Shown here piece by piece: positions 17,939 through 59,252 of a stretch of DNA of 64,000 nt. Numbering within the stretch: position 1 is the first letter of the stretch; every line of letters begins with the position of its first letter. Both the position numbers and the translations under genes were made by a program. Under the pieces are notes generated by a model. The model saw nothing but the letters and a program-made list of their open reading frames with translations. It had not been told where the DNA came from and did no database searches. Where the stretch lies: assembly GCA_035764005.1 (NCBI GenBank), contig DASTZZ010000083.1, positions 1-64,000 on the forward strand, read 5' to 3'. The DNA is from Terriglobales bacterium. GTDB lineage: Bacteria; Acidobacteriota; Terriglobia; Terriglobales; Acidobacteriaceae.

Positions 17939-18142
17939 ATCGGGTGATCGGGCCATCGGGTGATCGGGTCATCTGAATCCAAACCTGATCCGGATCTAGG
18001 CGGAATCTTTGGGCGTAGATGAACGCTGGGTCTAGAATTCGTTCGGCTAAAGCCTTCAAATATTGGTTATGCGAGCAGGAAGTGTGTAACCCGCGCTTGA
18101 TTCTCAGATCACCCGATGGCCCGATCACCCGATGACCCGATA
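17939..18142. repeat. Dispersed inverted repeat, family C, copy 1
   Basis: The left arm (17939-17975) and the right arm (18105-18142) are built from CGGGTGATC and CGGGTCATC units in opposite orientation; both arms contain GGTGATCGGGCCATCGGGTG or its complement. The central 130 bp is unique. It fills the gap between the lipoprotein gene and ssb. A related element interrupts imuA at 56802-56958. Confidence 0.82.
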
Positions 18143-49678: not shown

Positions 49679-50059
49679 TCACTTTCCTGGTCCGGAACCG
49701 TCCACAGCAGACTGCACCAGATGAATGAGCTCGGCAGGAGGACAGGGTTTTTGACGAAACAGAACGTTCATCCCCTCATATTCCTTTTCCACTTCGGGCA
49801 TACCGCTAATGACAATGACCGGAACCTCCGGATTGATCTCGCGCAGCATATGGACGAATTCGGAACCGGTGGCGTGCGGCATGATGTGATCGGTGACCAC
49901 AACGCCAATTTTCTGCGATTGGGAGAGGGTGCGAAGGAGGGCAAGAGCGCTGTCGGCACTGGTAGCGACCTGGACTTCCATTCCCGCCTGGTTCAGCACC
50001 ATTTGCCGTGCCGAAAGCTGAATCGGATTGTCGTCAACCAGAAGAACGGTCTTGCTCAA
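49679..50059 (-). CDS. Single-domain response regulator
   Basis: A 126-residue CheY-like receiver beginning at a TTG at 50059 (SKTVLLVDDNPIQLSARQMVLNQAG). The phospho-acceptor Asp is in VVVTDHIMPHATGSEF, T/S in VIVISGMPEV, Lys in LFRQKPCPP. No output domain. The longer frame start (50176) adds residues with no family likeness. It is separate from ccmF by 108 bases on the same strand. Partner kinase unknown. Confidence 0.8.
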   Translation of the reverse strand: MSKTVLLVDDNPIQLSARQMVLNQAGMEVQVATSADSALALLRTLSQSQKIGVVVTDHIMPHATGSEFVHMLREINPEVPVIVISGMPEVEKEYEGMNVLFRQKPCPPAELIHLVQSAVDGSGPGK

Positions 50060-50093
50060 TGCTCCTGCCCTTTCGCTAAAGAGATTTCCCCGG

Positions 50094-50411
50094 CTACGAC
50101 GCGCGGCCGCGCAATTCCGTCTCTGCGCGGAACCAATCGTCCATGTGCCGGCCATGGGTGCCTCCGCGCTGGACATACAGTTCGTAAGCGCGGCGGCGAA
50201 TCTGCTCTTCGCTCACGCTGGGATGAACGTTGGTGTCGGTAGCGCGCGAGGGGCGCGACGTTTCGTTCTGGGCCGCTCGGTTCTCGGCGGCAGAACTGGT
50301 TTGCAATATTGAAGTTGGGGCTTTTTGGACAGCGGCAGCGGTGGTGCCGTTGGTTCCGGCATCACCGTTTGTGCCGGACGCCTTCTTACTCGGACTTTTT
50401 GCTCTTGGCAT
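50094..50411 (-). CDS. DUF2934-domain protein
   Basis: About 105 residues. The N-terminal 65 residues are a low-complexity Ser/Thr/Asn/Ala stretch; the C-terminal 35 residues (SEEQIRRRAYELYVQRGGTHGRHMDDWFRAETEL) are the DUF2934 module, common in Acidobacteria and some proteobacteria. GGAGAA precedes the ATG at 50411. Function unknown. It lies 34 bases upstream of the receiver gene and may be cotranscribed with it. Confidence 0.82.
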   Translation of the reverse strand: MPRAKSPSKKASGTNGDAGTNGTTAAAVQKAPTSILQTSSAAENRAAQNETSRPSRATDTNVHPSVSEEQIRRRAYELYVQRGGTHGRHMDDWFRAETELRGRAS

Positions 50412-50690
50412 GGATGATCTTCTCCAAGTTAGGGGGTTAATTTGGATGTTGGAGCGCTCATCGGCAGCGCGAAGATCACAACGACCTCCACAGATGGCAC
50501 AACACAACAACCTCATTCTAACAACCTCGAGTGAGGAACGGGAGAGAAGTTGAGGTGGAAAACAGGGTGCATCATGACTCTTAGTTCTCGCGAGCAATTT
50601 GGAATTAAGGAGAGCCGATGGGCAAGTAAGGAAGCGAGTCAATCCTGTTCGCAAGCGCTGATTCGTGAGATCCATTGTTTTTTGAAGTAC

Positions 50691-53600
50691 TTAGTGAAAG
50701 TCATGCGACCGCGTAGCTGCTTCTGTGATTTCCAGCCTTGCGACGCTCATCGCTTTCACTGAGATGACGTTCTCTACGTTCTGGAGAATTCCCTCAATAA
50801 GAAGGAAACGTTCGTGAATTACGAGTAGCCGGTTCTGGTCGTACAAATCGGGGGTGATAATTGCGTTTGAGATTCCCGTTTCGTCTTCCAAGCTCAGGAA
50901 GATAAAGCCATTGGCCGTGCCCGGACGCTGGCGCGCGATCACGCAACCAGCAATACGAACCAGTTGCCCGTGCCTTATTCCCTGCAGGTCGGTCGCGCGG
51001 ATCACGCGCATACGGTTCATCTCCGCACGGCGATACACCATTGGGTGCGGGCCAACCGTCATCCCGGTACCGTGGTAGTCGGCCACAAGGCGCTCTTCGG
51101 CGGTCATTTGCGCGAGTGGAGAAGGCGAATCAAGCTCGGCGAGGGCGGCCAGCAGCGGCCCTTCGCTCCAGGCTGCGCGTTCGACTTGCCAGAGGGCGTC
51201 GCGACGATGCATTGCAAGTTGCGGAACAACGAAGACAGAACCGGCGCCGATACCGGGGCCCCCGACAGATTTTGCGGCTGTTGGGGTGGTGGTAGGCGGT
51301 GGGGCAGCCGCGTGTGTTGCGGCTGCGCTTTTCCAAGTTGCATGCGGCATCATCTTGCCCGGAGCTGGCCATTCGGCCATCTCCGGCCCACCGGCTACCG
51401 CCGGCGGTTCTGTTTGGCATTCGGCAAAACCTCCATCCAACCGATTCAACGCTCCAATTTGCGCCAGCATGTTCAGCTCATTGCGTCTCAATTCGGGGAC
51501 GTGGCGGGCGAGATCGTCTACTGAAGTGAAAGGCCGCTGGTTGCGTTCATTCACTAACGCCTTAGCCGCTGACTCGCGCAGTCCGCGAACGTAGCGCAGG
51601 CCCATGCGCATCGAAATCTTGCAGCCTTCGTGATGATGCGGAGCCGCTCCGCCGCACTCGCATTCCAGTGTGCACGCCCAATCCGATCGTGTGACGTCCA
51701 CTGGGCGCACCCGTAAGCCATGCCGTTGCGCATCTTTCACGATTGTGGCCGGATGATAGAAGCCCATCGGCTGATTGTTCAACAACGCTGCTGTGAACGC
51801 AGCAAGATAATGGCACTTGAGATATGCGCTCGCATATGCCAGCAGGGCGAAGCTGGCGGCGTGGGATTCAGGAAAACCATAGAGTGCAAATGAGACGATG
51901 GATTGCACGATCTCATCCTGGGCTTCGCGCGAAATCCCATTTTTAGTCATGCCGCTGCGCAGCCGAGTTTCGATGGCGGCCATCTTCGCCTGCGAACGCT
52001 TGTTGCCCATCGCTCGGCGCAGCTCCTCGGCTTCGCCTCCAGTAAAATCTGCGACCACCATGGCCATGCGCAGAAGTTGCTCCTGGAAGAGCGGCACACC
52101 AAGCGTCCGCTTCAGCACCGGCTCGAGCGATGGATGGGCATAACGCACCTCTTCCAGATGCTGCCGGCGTTTCAAAAAGGGATTCATCATCTTGCCGACG
52201 ATCGGTCCCGGCCGGATGATCGCCACTTGAATGACGATGTCGTAGAAAACTTTCGGACGATTGCGCGGCAGCGCGGCCATTTGAGCGCGGCTTTCTACTT
52301 GGAACAATCCGACAGTATCGGCTTCCTGCAACGCTTTATATACCGGCGGATCGTCTTGAGGAAGCTGCGCCAGATCGACCTTATCTCCATAATGCTGTGG
52401 GATCAGCTCGATGCAGTCTTCCAGAACGGCCATCATGCCGAGGCCCAGCAGGTCGATCTTAATGAGTTTCAAATCGGCACAATCGTCTTTATCCCACTGA
52501 ACGACGACTCGTCCCGGCATGCTCGCAGGCTCAAGCGGAACGACGGAGCTGAGTTGTCCCTGGCAAACGACCATGCCGCCGGAGTGCTGGCCGAGATGAC
52601 GCGGCAAATCCTGCACGCGCAAGGCGAGATCGAGAAACTTCGAGATGCGCGGATGCCGCAGATCGAATCCAGCATGGCGGAACTGATGCTCCATCGTGTC
52701 AGTTGGTCCGCGCCACTCCCATGAGCCAACAAGCGCTGAGAGCCGGTCCAATGTTTCAGCATCAAAGCCCAGCGATTTGCCAACTTCGCGCGCGGCCGAG
52801 CGTCCACGATAGGTAATTACGTTCGCAGTCATCGCAGCGCCATGCGCTCCGTACTTGGCATAAACGTGCTGGATCACGCGCTCGCGCTGATCGCCACTGG
52901 GAAGATCAAGATCGATGTCTGGCATCTCGCCACGCTGCTCGGAAAGAAAACGCTCGAAGAGCAGATCCATGCCGACCGGATCGATTGCGGTGATGCCAAG
53001 CGCATAACACACGGCACTGTTCGCCGCCGAGCCACGTCCCTGTACGAGAATGCGCTGCTCGCGGCAGAAGCGCACGATGTCCCACACGATCAGGAAGTAG
53101 CCGGACAAATCGAGATGTTCAATGAGCGCCAGCTCACGTTCGATCTGCTGGCGGGCGCGCTCGCGCAGTTCCGAAGGTTTCTGCCCATAACGTCCATACA
53201 TTCCTTCGCGCGTGCGGTCGCGCAGGAACGACATCATGGTCTCGCCAGGGCCTACCGGATATTTTGGAAACTCATAGCCAAGATGTTCGAGCGTGAACTG
53301 CAATCGCTTTGACAGAGTCTCGGTATTTGCAATCGCCTCCGGAAGATCGGCAAAGAGCTGTTCCATTTCCGCAGGCGTGCGGATGAAGCGTTCTGAGTTG
53401 ATCGAGAGCAGGCGTCCGGCATTCTCCAGTTGCCGGTGGTGACGAATGCAGGTGAAGACATCGAGGATCTCGCGCTCCGCAGTCGTCGCATACGAGACAC
53501 CATTCGTTGCCAGCAGCGGAAGATGCAGCTTGCGCGCGATCGCGATCGCCGCTTGGTTGCGCGCTTCTTCGCGTCGATCGAAGTGGCGCTGCAATTCGAC

Positions 53601-54092
53601 ATAGACATTCTGCGGACCGAAGATGCGCATCATGCGCTTGACTGCACGCAGTCCTTCGTCGTAGCCGCCGCGTGCCAAAGCTTCAGCTAAAGGACCTTCA
53701 TCGCCGCCAGTGAGACACACAAGTCCGCCGGCATGTTCTTCAAGCTCTTCGAATCGTGCCGCACTTTCTTCTTTCCTGGCACGCAGCTTGGTGCGCGTGA
53801 TCAGCCGGCATAGGTTCTGATACCCAGTACGCGACTCGGCGAGCAGCGGATAGCGCGCCGGTCCAGCTTCGCCAAAGAGTGTGTCATCGATTGTGACTTC
53901 CGCGCCGATGTGTGCTTTGATTCCGCACTTCTGTGCTGCCAGATGGAAGCGCGGCGCGCCATAGACACCGTTCCGATCCAGCAGCGCCATCGCCGGCATT
54001 CCATAATCGGCACACACGCCGATCAGAGCTTCGGGTAGCGAGGCGCCTTCGAGGAAGCTGAATGCCGAGCGGGAATGGAGCTCTATGTACAT
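50691..54092 (-). CDS. dnaE2: Error-prone DNA polymerase III alpha subunit DnaE2 (ImuC)
   Basis: A 1133-residue translesion polymerase of the mutasome. PHP-type N-terminus ([20 protein letters not shown]), catalytic palm with [15 protein letters not shown] and [22 protein letters not shown], and the C-terminal OB-fold region ([29 protein letters not shown]) are all present. A low-complexity Pro/Ala/Thr insert ([18 protein letters not shown], then [17 protein letters not shown]) lies near 889-950. It is the last gene after imuA and imuB, separated from imuB by a family A repeat. Confidence 0.95.
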   Translation of the reverse strand: [1133 protein letters not shown]

Positions 54093-54105
54093 CTATATCC
54101 ATTTT

Positions 54106-54207
54106 GTTTGTCATTCCGAGCCGCTGGTTTTTGCGGCGAGGAATCCCTACTGTATCCATGCTTTTTTGGTTCAGTAGGGATCCCTCACTTCGTTCGGGAT
54201 GACAAAC
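54106..54207. repeat. Dispersed inverted repeat, family A, short copy (102 bp)
   Basis: Arms GTTTGTCAT (54106-54114) and ATGACAAAC (54199-54207), followed inward by CCGAG and GTTCGGG-like words; internal GGAATCCCTACTG and CAGTAGGGATCC form a second palindrome. It shares the TGTCAT...GGGATGACA ends with copies 1-3 but lacks about 65 bases of interior. It separates dnaE2 from imuB. Confidence 0.75.
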
Positions 54208-54212
54208 CGGCT

Positions 54213-55766
54213 CTAATCAACCGTTGATTCCACATACCATTTCGCCGAGCTTAGATCGCGATATACGTGCGCGAGCCAAGGGCGAAGTTCTTCGGAGCGC
54301 AGTTCGAGATCCCACTCATCGCGTGTCCAGGCCTTCTCGGTCCACCATCCGCCGTTGTTGCGCCAGGGACCAGCAACAGCTGTGACCTCGTGCGGCTGTC
54401 CTTTCACGAATACGCGAATTGGTACTCCATGCTTGCTGTGGACCTTGGCATCAAGCGGCGGACGAAAGATGCGCAATGCTGTCTTCTGCTCTTTAAACTC
54501 TTTGTCATTCTTTGCGGCTAAACGTTCTGGATAAAACGGGCGCATGCGAAATGCATCGGGGGCATGCGTGTCCAGCAATTCGGGCGAGCCCACGCGATCA
54601 TCTCCCACCAAACCTCGGAGTCGAGCGAGCGTCAACTCAAGACGCTCAGGAGCCAGACCGCGCGGCAGAAACAATCCTGATTGGGCAAAGCGCGGCGGCG
54701 CTGCTTCTGCGTTAAGGAACAGCTTCTTCACAGGGCCTTGCGGTGGATGAGCGGCAAGGTCAAGCTGCAGCAGCTTGAGAAATGTCCGGCTGTCCTGCAT
54801 GGGGATCGGGAACTGCAAAGTGCGCTGATGCATCGACCGACTCGCTTCTTGCTCTTCGGTCGATTGGTCTTCGTATCCGGTGATCTCCAGCGCCACACGC
54901 AGCTCAGTGGCTGCAAGAGCACGCGCTTGCAGCCGCGCGCAGATTCGTTCTAGCATGCGGTTCAGAACAAACATCAGCGGGTCAAGCAATTCGACCGCAT
55001 CTTCCAGCTCGATGCTTTCTTCAAACTTGGTCGTGGATTCAACAGGAACCAGCGTTCGCTGCGCGCATCCACATGCGAGCTTCTGCAGTCGCAAACCTTC
55101 TTGCCCGAGCCGCTGGCTGAGTGCGATCGTCGGCAATGCGGCAAGCGACCCGAAGTCGCGAATGCCCCATCGCTCCAGCGTTTCCAGCAATTCTTCAGAG
55201 GGTTCAAGCAAGGAGACAGGCAATGATCCGAGTCGCTCGGCTTCTTTTCCATGAGGAATCACAGTGATACCGGAGAAGCCGTGCGCAGCGTGCATGGCCG
55301 CATCGGGATTGCCGGCGATTGCTATATTCGCAGCAAGTCCCATTTTGGAAATTCGTCCGGATAGCTCCCGCGCAATCATGCCGGGCGGACCAAAGAGGCG
55401 ATCGAGTCCAGCGATGTCGAGAATGATCGTGTCTCCCGGTCTGGACTTGTCATCGTCGCTGAGTTGCCGATTCGTGTCTTCTACGCGAGGCGAGAAAGCA
55501 TGTGCGCAATCGAGCAATGCATCGCTAGCCGAAGCCTCTTCCACAATTGACCTGCGCCGCAGGCGCACGCCCGTACAAGCCTCTGCCTGAAGCTTGGTCA
55601 TACCCATTTCGATTCCTGCTGCGCGCGCCTTTGCATTCGCGCCAACTACGGTGAGCATTGGTGGAGTGCCATCGAGGACGGCGACAACCTGCTCGCGCAA
55701 CTCAGGCGCGGTGCGCAGGAGAGCCTCGACAGGGAAATCAGGAACGTAGATACAGGCAAACAGCAT
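54213..55766 (-). CDS. imuB: Y-family DNA polymerase-like ImuB
   Basis: About 517 residues. The ATG at 55766 gives MLFACIYVPDFPVEALLRTAPEL; the earlier GTG/ATG adds only four residues. It has the Y-family layout, but the catalytic first motif D-x-D is replaced (YVPDFPVEA) and the acidic pair later (LDIAGLDRLFG) is reduced, as is typical of ImuB, which is a non-catalytic hub binding beta clamp and DnaE2. GSPELLDTHAPDAFRM and WRNNGGWWTEKAWTRDEWDLE near the end are ImuB hallmarks. In the mutasome it recruits DnaE2 after damage. Confidence 0.94.
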   Translation of the reverse strand: MLFACIYVPDFPVEALLRTAPELREQVVAVLDGTPPMLTVVGANAKARAAGIEMGMTKLQAEACTGVRLRRRSIVEEASASDALLDCAHAFSPRVEDTNRQLSDDDKSRPGDTIILDIAGLDRLFGPPGMIARELSGRISKMGLAANIAIAGNPDAAMHAAHGFSGITVIPHGKEAERLGSLPVSLLEPSEELLETLERWGIRDFGSLAALPTIALSQRLGQEGLRLQKLACGCAQRTLVPVESTTKFEESIELEDAVELLDPLMFVLNRMLERICARLQARALAATELRVALEITGYEDQSTEEQEASRSMHQRTLQFPIPMQDSRTFLKLLQLDLAAHPPQGPVKKLFLNAEAAPPRFAQSGLFLPRGLAPERLELTLARLRGLVGDDRVGSPELLDTHAPDAFRMRPFYPERLAAKNDKEFKEQKTALRIFRPPLDAKVHSKHGVPIRVFVKGQPHEVTAVAGPWRNNGGWWTEKAWTRDEWDLELRSEELRPWLAHVYRDLSSAKWYVESTVD

Positions 55767-55830
55767 GACTAAACCCAAAAAGCGGATTCACCACGGAGAC
55801 ACAGAGAACACAGAGGAATAAAGCAGAAAA

Positions 55831-56096
55831 CGTTTCGGGTTCGAGTTTCAAGTTTCGGCAAAGCCAGTCCTCCGCATTCGTTCTCGGGCATTAACCGCGT
55901 GCCGTGGTGATCCTGTTGGCAACGGGCTTTGCCGAAACTCGAAACCTGAAACTCGAAACGCTTTGTACCCCTCCCCTCCCCCTTTTTTGCAAAATCCGTC
56001 ATTTACAGGAGTTAAGTCGGTTTTTGCGCATTTTTTCATTTTCGAAACCCAAGATCTTGGGATCGCAAAAATTGCGAATCCAACATCTTGGGTTTT
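55831..56096. repeat. Two palindromes in the imuA-imuB spacer
   Basis: First: about 35-base arms at 55831-55865 and 55925-55960 (CGTTTCGGGTTCGAGTTTC and its near complement, meeting at GGCAAAGCC/GGCTTTGCC). Second: AAACCCAAGAT (56045-56055) with ATCTTGGGTTT (56085-56095), with an inner GATCGCAA/TTGCGAATC stem. Together they fill most of the 388-base gap between the imuA stop and the imuB start, where in other genomes the two genes nearly touch. They could act as attenuators or simply be insertions. Confidence 0.78.
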
Positions 56097-56154
56097 GCTC
56101 CGCAACTTTGCCGTCTAGAACCACTTTCTGTTGCCCCTTTCCCCTAGCAAAAAC

Positions 56155-57294
56155 CTAAGCAACGGGGGTTTGTAATGCTTCCTCATGGCCAAAAGCGGCT
56201 CGGGACAACAACGGGGAGCTCTGTACCTCCGCGTCTCTGTGATGAAACATATTTCCAACCTCGAATGCTGATTTAGCAGGCACTTTTGGCGGCTGCATGG
56301 CGCTTCTCGAACGCGTGACCTGCAAATGCACATGAACCGTATTCAACAGACGCGCGTGCGGCGTACTCCAGCGCTGCGGCATAGTGAACGACGACGTTGC
56401 CGATTGTTCAAACGGTATTGCGATTCCTTCAGCAGTCACCCGGAACAAAGGAGCAGGATTCCCGGCATGCGCACTCATCACTGTTGCGTCCTGATCTGAA
56501 GATTCACTCCAAGTCGCCTGCTGGGCGGTTAAATCCATCACCAGTGTGGCGCAGCTCTTTGCATGCGGAGCCTGCTCGAGAACGATAAACGCTGTCGAAG
56601 TGTTCTCCACCGCGCGCCGAAAGCGAAACCAGGTGGTGAGTGGAATACGACGCGCCGCAGCCATCGGAATGTCTCCGAGATCGAGAACTACGACTCCGAA
56701 ACCTCCCGCTTGGAGCAGGAGGTCGGTTGATTTGAGAGCCTGGGAAAGCGAATCGGGCGACCCCACCCCAGTAGCCGCAAAACCGGCGCCTGCTGGGGAC
56801 CCCGGTGATCGGGTCATCGAGTCATCGGGTGAAGTGAAAACCTTTGGCGCCTCCGTTCTTTGAAGATGCGATTGACTCTGTTTTGCCGAGTGCCGAGTGC
56901 CGAATGCCGAATGCCTCTTTACTTCACCCGATGACCCGATCACCCGATTACCCGATCCTTTGCATCGGACCCATAGTAGTCGTCCAAGCTCCACTCCCGC
57001 ACTTGCTGCTGATTGCGGATCGAAAGCATCGCTGGCATCGACGAGCGCGCACATTTCATCGCGGCGCATAAATTCGGCAAAGATCTGAAGCAGGATGCTG
57101 CTGCGGCCGGACGAGGAAGGTCCGCAGATTTCCGTCAAACAGCCGAGGGGAATGCCGCCGGTAAGCGCGTCCACCGAAGCGATGCCGGTGAGAATCCGCT
57201 CCAGCGAAGGCCGCTGGACAGGGGCAAAAGCGCGAGGAATACGAGGTTCAAGCACCTGTTCAAGTCGTGTTCGCAGCTCCATTGCAGTAGTCAT
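56155..57294 (-). CDS. imuA: ImuA-like RecA-fold protein, interrupted by a repeat
   Basis: A 379-residue RecA/SulA-like mutasome protein (family: ImuA). The N-terminal half includes GPSSSGRSSILLQIF (58-72), a Walker A in which the usual Lys is Arg, so ATPase activity is doubtful, and ALVDASDAFDPQSAASAGVELGRLLWVRCK. Residues about 113-165 (from NRVIGSS to SPGSPAGAG) are encoded by a dispersed repeat and have no family counterpart; the reading frame survives. The second half returns (LLQAGGFGVVVLDLGDIP, AFIVLEQAPHAKS). It heads imuB and dnaE2. Confidence 0.88.
   Translation of the reverse strand: MTTAMELRTRLEQVLEPRIPRAFAPVQRPSLERILTGIASVDALTGGIPLGCLTEICGPSSSGRSSILLQIFAEFMRRDEMCALVDASDAFDPQSAASAGVELGRLLWVRCKGSGNRVIGSSGEVKRHSAFGTRHSAKQSQSHLQRTEAPKVFTSPDDSMTRSPGSPAGAGFAATGVGSPDSLSQALKSTDLLLQAGGFGVVVLDLGDIPMAAARRIPLTTWFRFRRAVENTSTAFIVLEQAPHAKSCATLVMDLTAQQATWSESSDQDATVMSAHAGNPAPLFRVTAEGIAIPFEQSATSSFTMPQRWSTPHARLLNTVHVHLQVTRSRSAMQPPKVPAKSAFEVGNMFHHRDAEVQSSPLLSRAAFGHEEALQTPVA
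56802..56958. repeat. Dispersed inverted repeat, family C, copy 2, inside imuA
   Basis: Left arm GGTGATCGGGTCATCGAGTC and right arm ACCCGATGACCCGATCACC-type share the CGGGTGATC/CGGGTCATC units of 17939-18142, again in inverted orientation. A short tandem TGCCGAGTGCCGAGTGCCGA lies in the middle (56884-56903). It falls wholly inside the imuA frame and encodes a linker without frameshift. Confidence 0.8.
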
Positions 57295-57527
57295 AAGCGA
57301 GGAGATAGTTTCGTTTTTTATTCGCCTAACAGATGGATTCTGCGCCTTGGATTTTGAGTTGTCAAGCTGTGGAAATTCGTCTCGAATGTCTGCTCTGAGC
57401 GGCTGTCAATGGCGGTCATTTGCTTGGCCACTCGTGCCAACTTCCGCCAAATTCAGCAACTCACGATTCCCATTGACTTGCCCGTATAGCAGCAGTAGTG
57501 TTTTCGCCAGTTACCCCCAAACCAGTT

Positions 57528-57941
57528 ATGCACCGCAGGCGAATTCTCGCTTATGGCGAGGACACCCTCGTCATTTCTACCCGCGCGATGATCCTGAGCC
57601 GCGCCGGGTACGAAGTCATTCACACTACGCGTGCTTCGGAGTTAGTTCCGCTGCTGCGTGGCATCTTTTTCGACATGCTGCTGGTCGGCGATTCGCTGCG
57701 CACGCCGGAGAACGTAAGGCTAGTAAAGCGCCTGCGTGAACACTTCCCCAAGTTGGCGATTATGACGGTGCAGGACGAGAAGGAAGACCGAGATCCCTGG
57801 TCGACGGCATTCGTCAGCAGCAGTCCGGAGCAGATGCTGATCGCAATTGGTGTTGTGCTTGCAGGACACAGCCACAAGCCTGTGGCGAGTGATGAAATTC
57901 CGAGACAGCAAAAGGTAATGCATACCGCGGCTGGGCGATAA
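57528..57941 (+). CDS. Receiver-like protein lacking the phospho-acceptor
   Basis: About 137 residues with a CheY-like layout: ILAYGEDTLVISTRAMILSRAGYEVIH, FFDMLLVGDSLR, LAIMTVQDEKED. The usual acidic pair of the first loop is G-E-D and the position of the phosphorylated Asp is a Gly (DMLLVG-D), so it should not be phosphorylated in the normal way. The ATG at 57528 gives MHRRRILAYGED; a GTG at 57498 is possible. It is divergent from imuA. Such pseudo-receivers occur in Acidobacteria; partner unknown. Confidence 0.7.
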   Translation: MHRRRILAYGEDTLVISTRAMILSRAGYEVIHTTRASELVPLLRGIFFDMLLVGDSLRTPENVRLVKRLREHFPKLAIMTVQDEKEDRDPWSTAFVSSSPEQMLIAIGVVLAGHSHKPVASDEIPRQQKVMHTAAGR

Positions 57942-58137
57942 CCATCCCAAAAAGAACGCCGCAAATATATGCAGATCGGGAGAACCCTGCGCGCGCGGAT
58001 TCACCGATTCAACTCATTTATCCCTATCGGTGCATCCGCGACCGAAGTATCCTGCCAATCCGCGTCAGGTTTCGTTCTAGAGCATTTTCTAGAACCTATG
58101 AACTGATGGACTCAAGCAGAAACGCTGCTTGTTTGAC

Positions 58138-58303
58138 ATTGTCATTCCTCGCGCCGCCGGGAAACAGTACCGGTCTCATTGCGTTTGCTTTACGGCGCGG
58201 GGAACCTGCTGTTTGGTAACGCGAGCAACAGCAGATCCCCCGGAGTGCAAACCCAGGATCGTTGACGCCCTATACGCAAACTTCGCGCTCCGAGGATGAC
58301 AAT
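58138..58303. repeat. Dispersed inverted repeat, family A, copy 3 (166 bp)
   Basis: Ends ATTGTCATTCCTCG (58138) and CGAGGATGACAAT (58291-58303), one base short of perfect complement. Interior GCGGGGAACCTGCTGTTT and AACAGCAGATCCCCC repeat the family A inner palindrome. It lies in the gap between the pseudo-receiver gene and the surface-protein gene. Confidence 0.85.
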
Positions 58304-58335
58304 GCCAAAGAAGACTCGATATCTCCGAGAGCGGT

Positions 58336-58361
58336 CTACAGCAACGGAAAAAATGCTGTAG
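58336..58361 (-). terminator. Hairpin after the surface-protein gene
   Basis: CTACAGCA and TGCTGTAG form an 8-bp stem with an A-rich (T-rich on the minus strand) loop, 6 bases past the gene's stop codon. No T-run follows the stem, so it may be a processing or weak termination signal. Confidence 0.4.
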
Positions 58362-58367
58362 TTCCTA

Positions 58368-59252
58368 TCAGCGGCGGAAGCGGCCGATGAAGCCTGCCAG
58401 GAACGTTCCGAATCCCATCAGGCCCAGTAAAGGAAGGACGGACGCCGTCTGTGGAAGCTGTGCGCTCTTCGATGAAGTTCCATTTTGGCTCTGAGCCGCC
58501 GAGTTGGCAGCTTCCGAACCGGAGCTTGCGCCGGCATTCGTCGGATTCGACGCATGGCTGCTGGTCGCGCTCTGATCGTTACGCGGAGTAGTTGAAGTTC
58601 CTGTCGCATTCGGATCGTTCTTCGGCACAGTAGTGGAATTGCTGTTCTGGTCGGTAGCTGAAGGCGCAGTCGTCGAAGAGCTGGAAGTTGCATTCGCTCC
58701 CTGGTCGCTCTGCGGTAGAGCCGAGCTACCGCTGGCGCTGTTCTGCTTAGGATTTGCCGAAACACCTACCCCGGTCGATGCTCCCGTGGCGTTGGACTGT
58801 GCGCCCATCTGATCATTGCCGGTTGTGCTGTTCTGATCGGTCGGATAGGCATTGCTCGCGCCGCTATTGTTCGAGCTCTGGCTGTTGGAGCTGGGAGAAC
58901 TCGGATTGGCCGAGTTGCTGCCCACAGAGCTGGTGTTGCCCGAAGTTCCCGTCGCGCCAGTCTGGCTCGTGCTGCTCTGATTTGCGCCTGCTGAGTTTGT
59001 ACCACTCGTGGTAGTCGAGCTTTGAGTTGATGGAGTTGTCGAGCTGCTGCCGGTTGAGCCATTCGCGCTGGCTGGATTCTGACTCGAGCTGGTCGGACTT
59101 CCATTCGATCCGGTCTGGCCTGTGCTGGTCGTGGTTGCTTGTGTCGAGGAAGAGCCTTGATCGCTCGCTGTTCCCGGCGTGCCTGCTGTTTGCGCTGCGG
59201 CAAAACTTAACGCCAGCAGCAGCGCTGGTGAGAGATACCATGCCTTCTGCAT
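58368..59252 (-). CDS. Low-complexity surface protein with LPxTx-like C-terminus
   Basis: A 294-residue protein: signal peptide (about 1-20, ending SFAAAQT), then about 240 residues of Ser, Thr, Asn, Gly and Ala only (SSTQATTTSTGQTGSNG style), then LPQTASVLPLLGLMGFGTFLAGFIGRFRR-type ending (about 266-294): an LPQTA motif, hydrophobic helix and Arg-rich tail, the layout of a cell-wall sorting signal. The body looks like a fibrous or glycosylated stalk. It is transcribed alone. What would process the tail in this Gram-negative is unknown. Confidence 0.75.
   Translation of the reverse strand: MQKAWYLSPALLLALSFAAAQTAGTPGTASDQGSSSTQATTTSTGQTGSNGSPTSSSQNPASANGSTGSSSTTPSTQSSTTTSGTNSAGANQSSTSQTGATGTSGNTSSVGSNSANPSSPSSNSQSSNNSGASNAYPTDQNSTTGNDQMGAQSNATGASTGVGVSANPKQNSASGSSALPQSDQGANATSSSSTTAPSATDQNSNSTTVPKNDPNATGTSTTPRNDQSATSSHASNPTNAGASSGSEAANSAAQSQNGTSSKSAQLPQTASVLPLLGLMGFGTFLAGFIGRFRR

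Follow-up and report, generated by a model that had tools for sequence, protein, structure and literature searches.

Repeated filling of one ImuA loop by unrelated dispersed repeats in Acidobacteriota

Introduction

Three described repeat systems come closest to the locus reported here. Rickettsia palindromic elements are about 150 bp long and comprise ten families; nearly half of them are intragenic in R. conorii, and each codes for a conserved peptide (PMC10969869). Intragenic repetitive extragenic palindromic sequences (REPs) of the GTAG and CGTC superfamilies were surveyed by Di Nocera et al. (2013), who found many of them in genes for DNA synthesis and repair, dnaE2 among those named, and, in two Xanthomonas, unlike REPs occupying roughly one position in recB; from scattered examples, the survey regarded the frequent location of intragenic REPs in DNA-repair genes as hard to see as fortuitous (PMC3733652). 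The heptanucleotide TAACTGA repeats of Beggiatoaceae form direct arrays that are mostly intergenic and lie just upstream of start codons (PMC4679880). Here, we analyzed a 64,000-nucleotide stretch of DNA (hereafter the window; contig DASTZZ010000083.1 of the Terriglobales assembly GCA_035764005.1), in which the mutasome gene imuA carries a composite of dispersed repeats within its reading frame, and we compared the corresponding protein loop among related Acidobacteriota.

An initial annotation of the window had called an in-frame dispersed element of this sort unusual, which was too strong, since in-frame palindromic elements have been published for Rickettsia (PMC10969869) and several other bacteria (PMC3733652). 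What is new is that, in related Acidobacteriota, unrelated repeats have repeatedly filled one orthologous loop; in-frame repeats as a kind were already known. A limited search of the open-licence literature on ImuA and Acidobacteria, on palindromic or REP repeats in Acidobacteria, and on ImuA structure found no report of a repeat-filled ImuA loop, none is mentioned in the 12 of 24 passages of PMC6511836 that were covered, and a term search of PMC12926913 gave no hit.

Anatomy and dispersal of the ImuA insert

The imuA gene occupies positions 56155–57294 on the minus strand and encodes a protein of 379 residues, in which the open reading frame, Pfam matches, operon order and an alignment of relatives support a RecA-like core and a repeat-derived loop at residues 112–186. 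The initial annotation had placed a repeat at 56802–56958 within this frame, and both the open frame and matches elsewhere in the genome bore it out. Its estimate of about 52 residues lacking a counterpart in ImuA fell short: the alignment gives 75 codons (56737–56961, minus strand) that are absent from short-loop orthologues and are bounded by LLWVRC (residues 106–111) and LKSTDLLLQ (from residue 187), the difference including a hairpin and an outer octamer unit that had been missed.

The loop is a composite of nested repeats. A left array of ATCGGGTS octamers with the inward end GGTGAAG (56807–56834) is matched by a right array in inverted orientation (CTTCACCCGATSACC...; 56922–56956), and the spacer of this octamer element contains an array of TGCCGAG/TGCCGAA heptamers (56884–56915), a family that also occurs elsewhere in the genome. 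Beside the left arm, a CCCCAG...CTGGGG hairpin (56766–56798) is nested between octamer units, the outer of which (56750–56764), octamer-like and located beyond the hairpin, was recognized by direct reading against the recG locus (L040). What the initial annotation described as one repeat with an extra TGCCGAG stretch comprises two families, one nested in the other. The arrays in the insert are short and imperfect. Folded as single-stranded DNA, the linker reached −52.2 kcal/mol (z = −5.4), and none of 200 shuffled sequences was as good. The insert combines several short hairpin-forming repeats that are dispersed in the genome, with matches (below) far beyond chance expectation. In the window interval 50000–59000, Rfam gave no match at gathering scores. 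The octamer element has the character of a dispersed palindromic repeat of about 100–150 bp, and the TGCCGAG array alone fits a description as degenerate 7-nt tandem units. Because the main element is built of 8-nt units, the composite is not a member of the heptanucleotide tandem repeats, which are also found in cyanobacteria.

We searched the source genome (G000, the draft of a soil member of the Acidobacteriota, in 131 contigs) with a 181-bp query and obtained at least 93 matches at E ≤ 0.001, counting the query itself and, for the inverted arms, hits on either strand; this is a lower bound, as 40 of 95 first-look candidates were scored. By our grouping, the matches fall at about 40 places. 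The hairpin end had 14 matches, itself included. Hairpin and octamers occur together again in RecG and at C103:41077. We compared 29 octamer clusters from the window and 34 loci of this genome: their arms are shared, as are inner ends resembling GGTGAAGTRAAACC, and the spacer varies, holding other repeats in several clusters. One further complete octamer element is present in the window outside imuA, at 17939–18141.

Three of the 29 clusters proved to be intragenic, in ImuA, RecG and DnaG. The RecG copy (L040) lies between the DEAD and Helicase_C matches and encodes FTSPDDPIPGSPAGAGVAAAGVKV, close to FTSPDDSMTRSPGSPAGAGFAATGV of ImuA; the DnaG copy (L021) lies inside the DNAG_N match and encodes GDRAIGSSGEVR, close to GNRVIGSSGEVK of ImuA. 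For ImuA, the Pfam match lies entirely before the loop, and the far side was placed by the alignment of relatives; the Pfam scan covered the frames spanning octamer clusters other than short ones (L030, L031, the plus frames of L026 and the minus frame of L021). The earlier proposal that a dispersed repeat supplies linker residues to ImuA was upheld, and the same element is read in frame in recG and dnaG. In RecG, the loop measures 74, 62, 61, 53 and 71 residues in G000, G002, G001, G004 and G003, all five containing octamer units by reading, compared with 14 residues in G005 and 12–37 residues in 14 of 17 other genera, those in which the site was located (23 of 30 RecG loci were taken in). 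The G000 recG (L040 173–2695) contains, downstream of this loop, another variable insert (KGPAAAPGRVLRREG...), which differs in each genome of the genus and is short in G005.

A wider count of in-gene copies, which the initial annotation had proposed as a check, took in 165 merged repeat places in four genomes (93, 23, 26 and 23), ImuA not counted; it covered the listed places of G008 and G014, all but about four places of G000, and 20 of the more numerous regions in G062. A spanning frame of at least 200 codons was present at 42 of the 165 places, and at seven the copy was demonstrably internal by Pfam: in RecG, DnaG, DnaE2 (twice), thiamine-phosphate synthase, alanyl-tRNA synthetase and a MiaB-like enzyme. 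At the remaining places in genes with Pfam matches, the copy precedes the first domain in a leader-like position (for example S8, RuvB and carboxyltransferase), and the cases in a TldD-like protein and an S9 peptidase are uncertain.

The same loop in related Acidobacteriota

An ImuA match was found in 59 of 61 genomes, many of the weak ones (residues 33–108, E near 1e-11) probably being RecA itself. In the 28 of 30 loci in which it could be measured, with the window's own counted, the loop was 6–150 residues long, and orthologues with loops of 6–17 residues exist; the stretch is therefore not a feature of all ImuA homologues, whereas its presence in all of them would have spoken against the earlier proposal. 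We then took the best 80 of 267 loci from a wider contig scan, all with Acidobacteria-type titles and most labelled Acidobacteriaceae, Acidobacteriales, Terriglobia, Terriglobales or gp1. Loops extracted from 73 of them were 14–89 residues long, and neither these loops nor the adjoining core contained a stop codon. Loop peptides of different genera do not align. In the same genus, G005 carries a shorter octamer element in the same ImuA loop and the same frame. A weak ImuA match in the same class (G051:C19:69875-70231) has one TAA within the segment aligned to residues 185–301.

In a first pass, 31 of 92 distinct linkers matched other DNA at E < 1e-4 (39 at 1e-2). Control windows of the same length in imuA gave 0 of 73 upstream, and 1 of 73 downstream at 1e-4 or 6 of 73 at 1e-2; this comparison was uneven, as same-locus matches were counted for linkers and not for controls, and the set included G000 repeat loci. 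A strict pass used 223 kb of flanking DNA in which all three mutasome genes had been masked, and it retained 21 of 92 linkers that matched dispersed repeats at E ≤ 1e-4 (25 at 1e-2). These represent nine unlinked families: CACAGAG arrays in nine linkers, CAGTTCC in three, octamers and GGTCCGA in two each, and five single ones. Since relatives hold different, unrelated repeats in the same ImuA loop, the loop is a recurrent landing site and not a one-off.

Whole-genome searches confirmed four loops as repeats, with 42 matches in G008 and at least 27, 27 and 41 in G061, G014 and G062, self-matches and both strands included; in the latter three genomes, 40 first-look candidates were scored in each. 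The matches in G062 span about bases 107–176 of a 228-base loop. G061 and G062 add two repeat-derived linkers to the 21. The cleanest case is G008, in which units of 74–83 bp recur with 86–89% identity at five further genomic places; DnaE2 of this genome accounts for two of these. Loops of 103 and 129 residues in G036 and G020 (L071 and L060) had no match in the flank set.

Turnover, frame keeping and selection

The content of the loop changes between relatives. The loop of L126 has 14 residues and that of L138 has 39 with a CACAGAG array, in proteins whose cores are 85% identical. L086 and L136 share a hairpin, to which L136 adds 24 nt inside one arm (bases 91–114 of the loop), themselves dispersed, and in L102, L111 and L140 a third element lies inside a CACAGAG array by reading. 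On a tree of the aligned ImuA core, family state must have changed at least 19 times, and the state of being occupied or not 18 times; the tree is built on just 147 columns and leaves 28 forks open, and the state "not" includes undetected repeats. The minimum number of repeat arrivals on which we rely is nine, which follows from the nine families and not from the tree.

The initial annotation had suggested that the element itself preserves the reading frame. Of the 102 frames of 17 complete octamer elements, the ImuA copy included, only 11 are open, and 7 of the 17 elements have a length divisible by three; the idea of a frame-preserving element was rejected. Given these counts and the seven internal copies among 165 places, the open frame of imuA is best explained by the loss of disrupted genes, that is, by selection and not by the element.

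The ImuA core has a ratio of nonsynonymous to synonymous substitution rates (dN/dS) of 0.13 over 54 overlapping close pairs, and the linker has about 0.45 on rough alignments. Seven gap-free pairs of sister linkers gave ratios of nonsynonymous to synonymous differences per site (pN/pS) of 0.08–0.88, with neutral-looking values in L093/L134 (0.77) and L131/L138 (0.88). From these data, together with the repeat-derived pair weighed below, imuA is retained and its insert tolerated, with constraint arising later on the insert itself in some lineages.

The loop is predicted to be disordered: an AlphaFold2 model from a 28-row alignment gave predicted local distance difference test (pLDDT) scores below 50 at residues 120–176, about 88–97 in the flanking blocks and a whole-model mean of 69.7. 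It is positioned after the strand at residues 106–110 and before the helix at 180–196. The RecA profile match stops at the strand before the loop, and its continuation at GEQAL is below significance and serves as a hint only.

Mutasome genes and their repeats

The mutasome genes lie on the minus strand of the window in the order dnaE2, imuB, imuA, and the operon is intact. The dnaE2 gene (50691–54092) exceeds the cut-off of the error-prone DNA polymerase model, and imuB (54213–55778), a Y-family polymerase homologue, matches DNA polymerase IV models below their cut-offs. ImuA has a Pfam RecA match at residues 31–108 (E = 3.6e-14), and all 50 matches listed in a fold search of the PDB are RecA; the NCBIfam ImuA model gave 34.9 bits against a cut-off of 150, below its curated score. 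We call the protein ImuA on the grounds of its RecA-like fold and the imuA-imuB-dnaE2 context, and not of the NCBIfam model.

We located repeat segments in the mutasome genes of the wider loci against the masked flanks, with positions given as reference residues interpolated from tblastn. In ImuA, 30 segments were found in 28 of 80 loci, of which 19 fall in the loop at residues 133–171 and 11 in one C-terminal zone at 254–284, and none elsewhere. All 21 DnaE2 segments, from 19 of 67 loci, fall at residues 57–92 in the PHP domain, the count covering the first part of the gene within the flanks (34 kb, 67 loci). ImuB had six segments in 6 of 78 loci. In G008, DnaE2 has a second repeat site near residue 940; its gene carries two in-frame copies (L215 1878–1960 and 4415–4491) of the unit of about 80 bp that fills the ImuA loop of that genome.

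Further repeat-like stretches were noted in the window. The DnaE2 has a long C-terminal insert (CQTEPPAVAGGPEMAEW...) between GALNRLDG and HRRDALWQ that looks repeat-derived by reading, and near the C-terminal end of imuA, positions 56225–56245 seem, also by reading, to encode part of a CACAGAG-type repeat (HHRDAEVQ). The gap between imuA and imuB (55779–55975) holds other dispersed repeats, with a CACAGAG array at 55789–55816 and inverted GAAACTC arms of about 30 bp at 55837–55865 and 55925–55959; as a query, it gave 94 matches in its own genome, self and both strands counted.

Discussion

For the ImuA insert, repetitive DNA and an open frame are established, as are a conserved flanking fold under purifying selection and, in relatives, loops that are either short or filled by at least nine unlinked families. 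We consider it likely that a copy of a nested composite repeat landed in a disordered loop, probably exposed, within the RecA-like core of ImuA. Repeats would enter DNA at random or with weak preference, and most intragenic insertions would be lost, so that the survivors would be those that are in frame, lack stops and lie in loops tolerant of additional residues. The ImuA loop and the PHP-domain loop of DnaE2 may be such tolerant sites, which would then be filled repeatedly, with later repeats nesting in earlier ones. Candidate movers of the repeats are a RAYT-type transposase or template switching during replication. The source genome has 12 Y1_Tnp matches. In one of them, a Y1 transposase gene flanked by REP-like hairpins, by reading, lies between two TGCCGAG arrays of the same orientation (L074 1381–2062), as if a transposase element had inserted into a heptamer array; only two such TGCCGAG arrays were present in 159 kb of other G000 loci.

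Several observations weigh against this reading. In the limited flank set, 71 of 92 linkers had no match at E ≤ 1e-4, and the 450-bp loop of G010 (150 residues; L068 1831–2280) matches itself alone in its genome, so not every long loop is recognizable as a repeat. At the eight of 12 Y1 loci examined, no octamer-arm match lay near the transposase, and no mobilizer of the octamer element was identified. The repeat-derived pair L133/L142 has a pN/pS of 0.12 (p < 0.0001), which points to constraint at the amino-acid level after insertion, a pattern not expected from tolerance alone. Finally, replication and repair genes make up three of the six genes with internal copies (RecG, DnaG and DnaE2), which may exceed what tolerance would yield. 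This lean is only suggestive, because the genes are few and Pfam favors large conserved proteins.

The last two observations bear on the explanation that survives best beside insertion into a tolerant loop, namely that selection favors long flexible insertions in mutasome, replication and repair proteins, for their effect on mutation rate or partner contacts, and that repeats are the handiest material. The occurrence of in-gene segments in all three mutasome genes, the restriction of the demonstrated octamer copies to ImuA, RecG and DnaG, and the constraint on some linkers are consistent with it, as is the published lean of REP insertions to repair genes, dnaE2 included (PMC3733652). It must be set against the turnover of the loop in both length and content between close relatives, such as L102 and L132, whose core DNA is 91% identical and whose loops are unlike, of 76 and 41 residues, and against orthologues that have loops of 6–17 residues and sister linkers that look neutral. 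We regard adaptive loops as improbable on balance, while giving them some weight.

It is very unlikely that the insert is a phase-variable switch, in which gain or loss of a 7- or 8-nt unit would shift the imuA frame and turn the mutasome on or off. Units of both sizes do lie in the frame; the arrays, however, are short and imperfect, and the ImuA tblastn segments stay within a single frame at each of the 80 named loci. We attach still less credence to an ancient ImuA loop that was lost in many lineages, with its likeness to repeats due to coincidence or low complexity. Long loops do occur in many genera, some without repeat matches, but the near-complete units at five other places in G008 and the occupation of one site by nine unlinked families, with loop peptides that do not align between genera, led us to reject a vertically inherited ancestral loop. 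An assembly chimera or a dead imuA is hardly credible with a conserved core and an intact operon, even in a draft of 131 contigs and given that assemblies break at repeats.

Insertion of repeats into a tolerant loop, our preferred reading, makes this locus useful for a wider question. With the 21 of 92 linkers and the two additional genomes, about two dozen species have this one protein loop occupied by unrelated repeats, and short-loop relatives are available for comparison, so that the question of a bias toward repair genes becomes testable. The set also offers a natural experiment in which non-coding repeats become protein linkers. The proportion of filled ImuA loops and the 7 of 165 internal places elsewhere have different denominators and allow a rough contrast only.

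Compared with the described systems, the ImuA insert resembles the Rickettsia palindromic elements in that dispersed palindromic repeats lie in frame in unrelated genes (PMC10969869), here RecG, DnaG and ImuA, and in that one frame is read in several hosts, as the closeness of the ImuA/RecG and ImuA/DnaG peptides indicates. It differs in that the arms are tandem 7- or 8-nt units, the elements are nested, and one orthologous loop has been hit by many unrelated families. The octamer element has inverted arms; membership in the miniature inverted-repeat transposable elements would call for target-site duplications as well. The Beggiatoaceae TAACTGA repeats are likewise dispersed tandem 7-nt units, a minority of which lie inside or overlap open reading frames (PMC4679880), whereas the arrays described here form inverted pairs, some of them in internal loops of proteins. 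The GTAG and CGTC REPs are also intragenic hairpin repeats, many of them in repair genes (PMC3733652). In contrast to these REPs, the octamer element is built of tandem units, and its ends have no evident GTAG or CGTC tag by reading, without a formal scan. The pattern of different repeats at a shared site, known in the REPs from one species pair, extends here to 21 of 92 ImuA loops.
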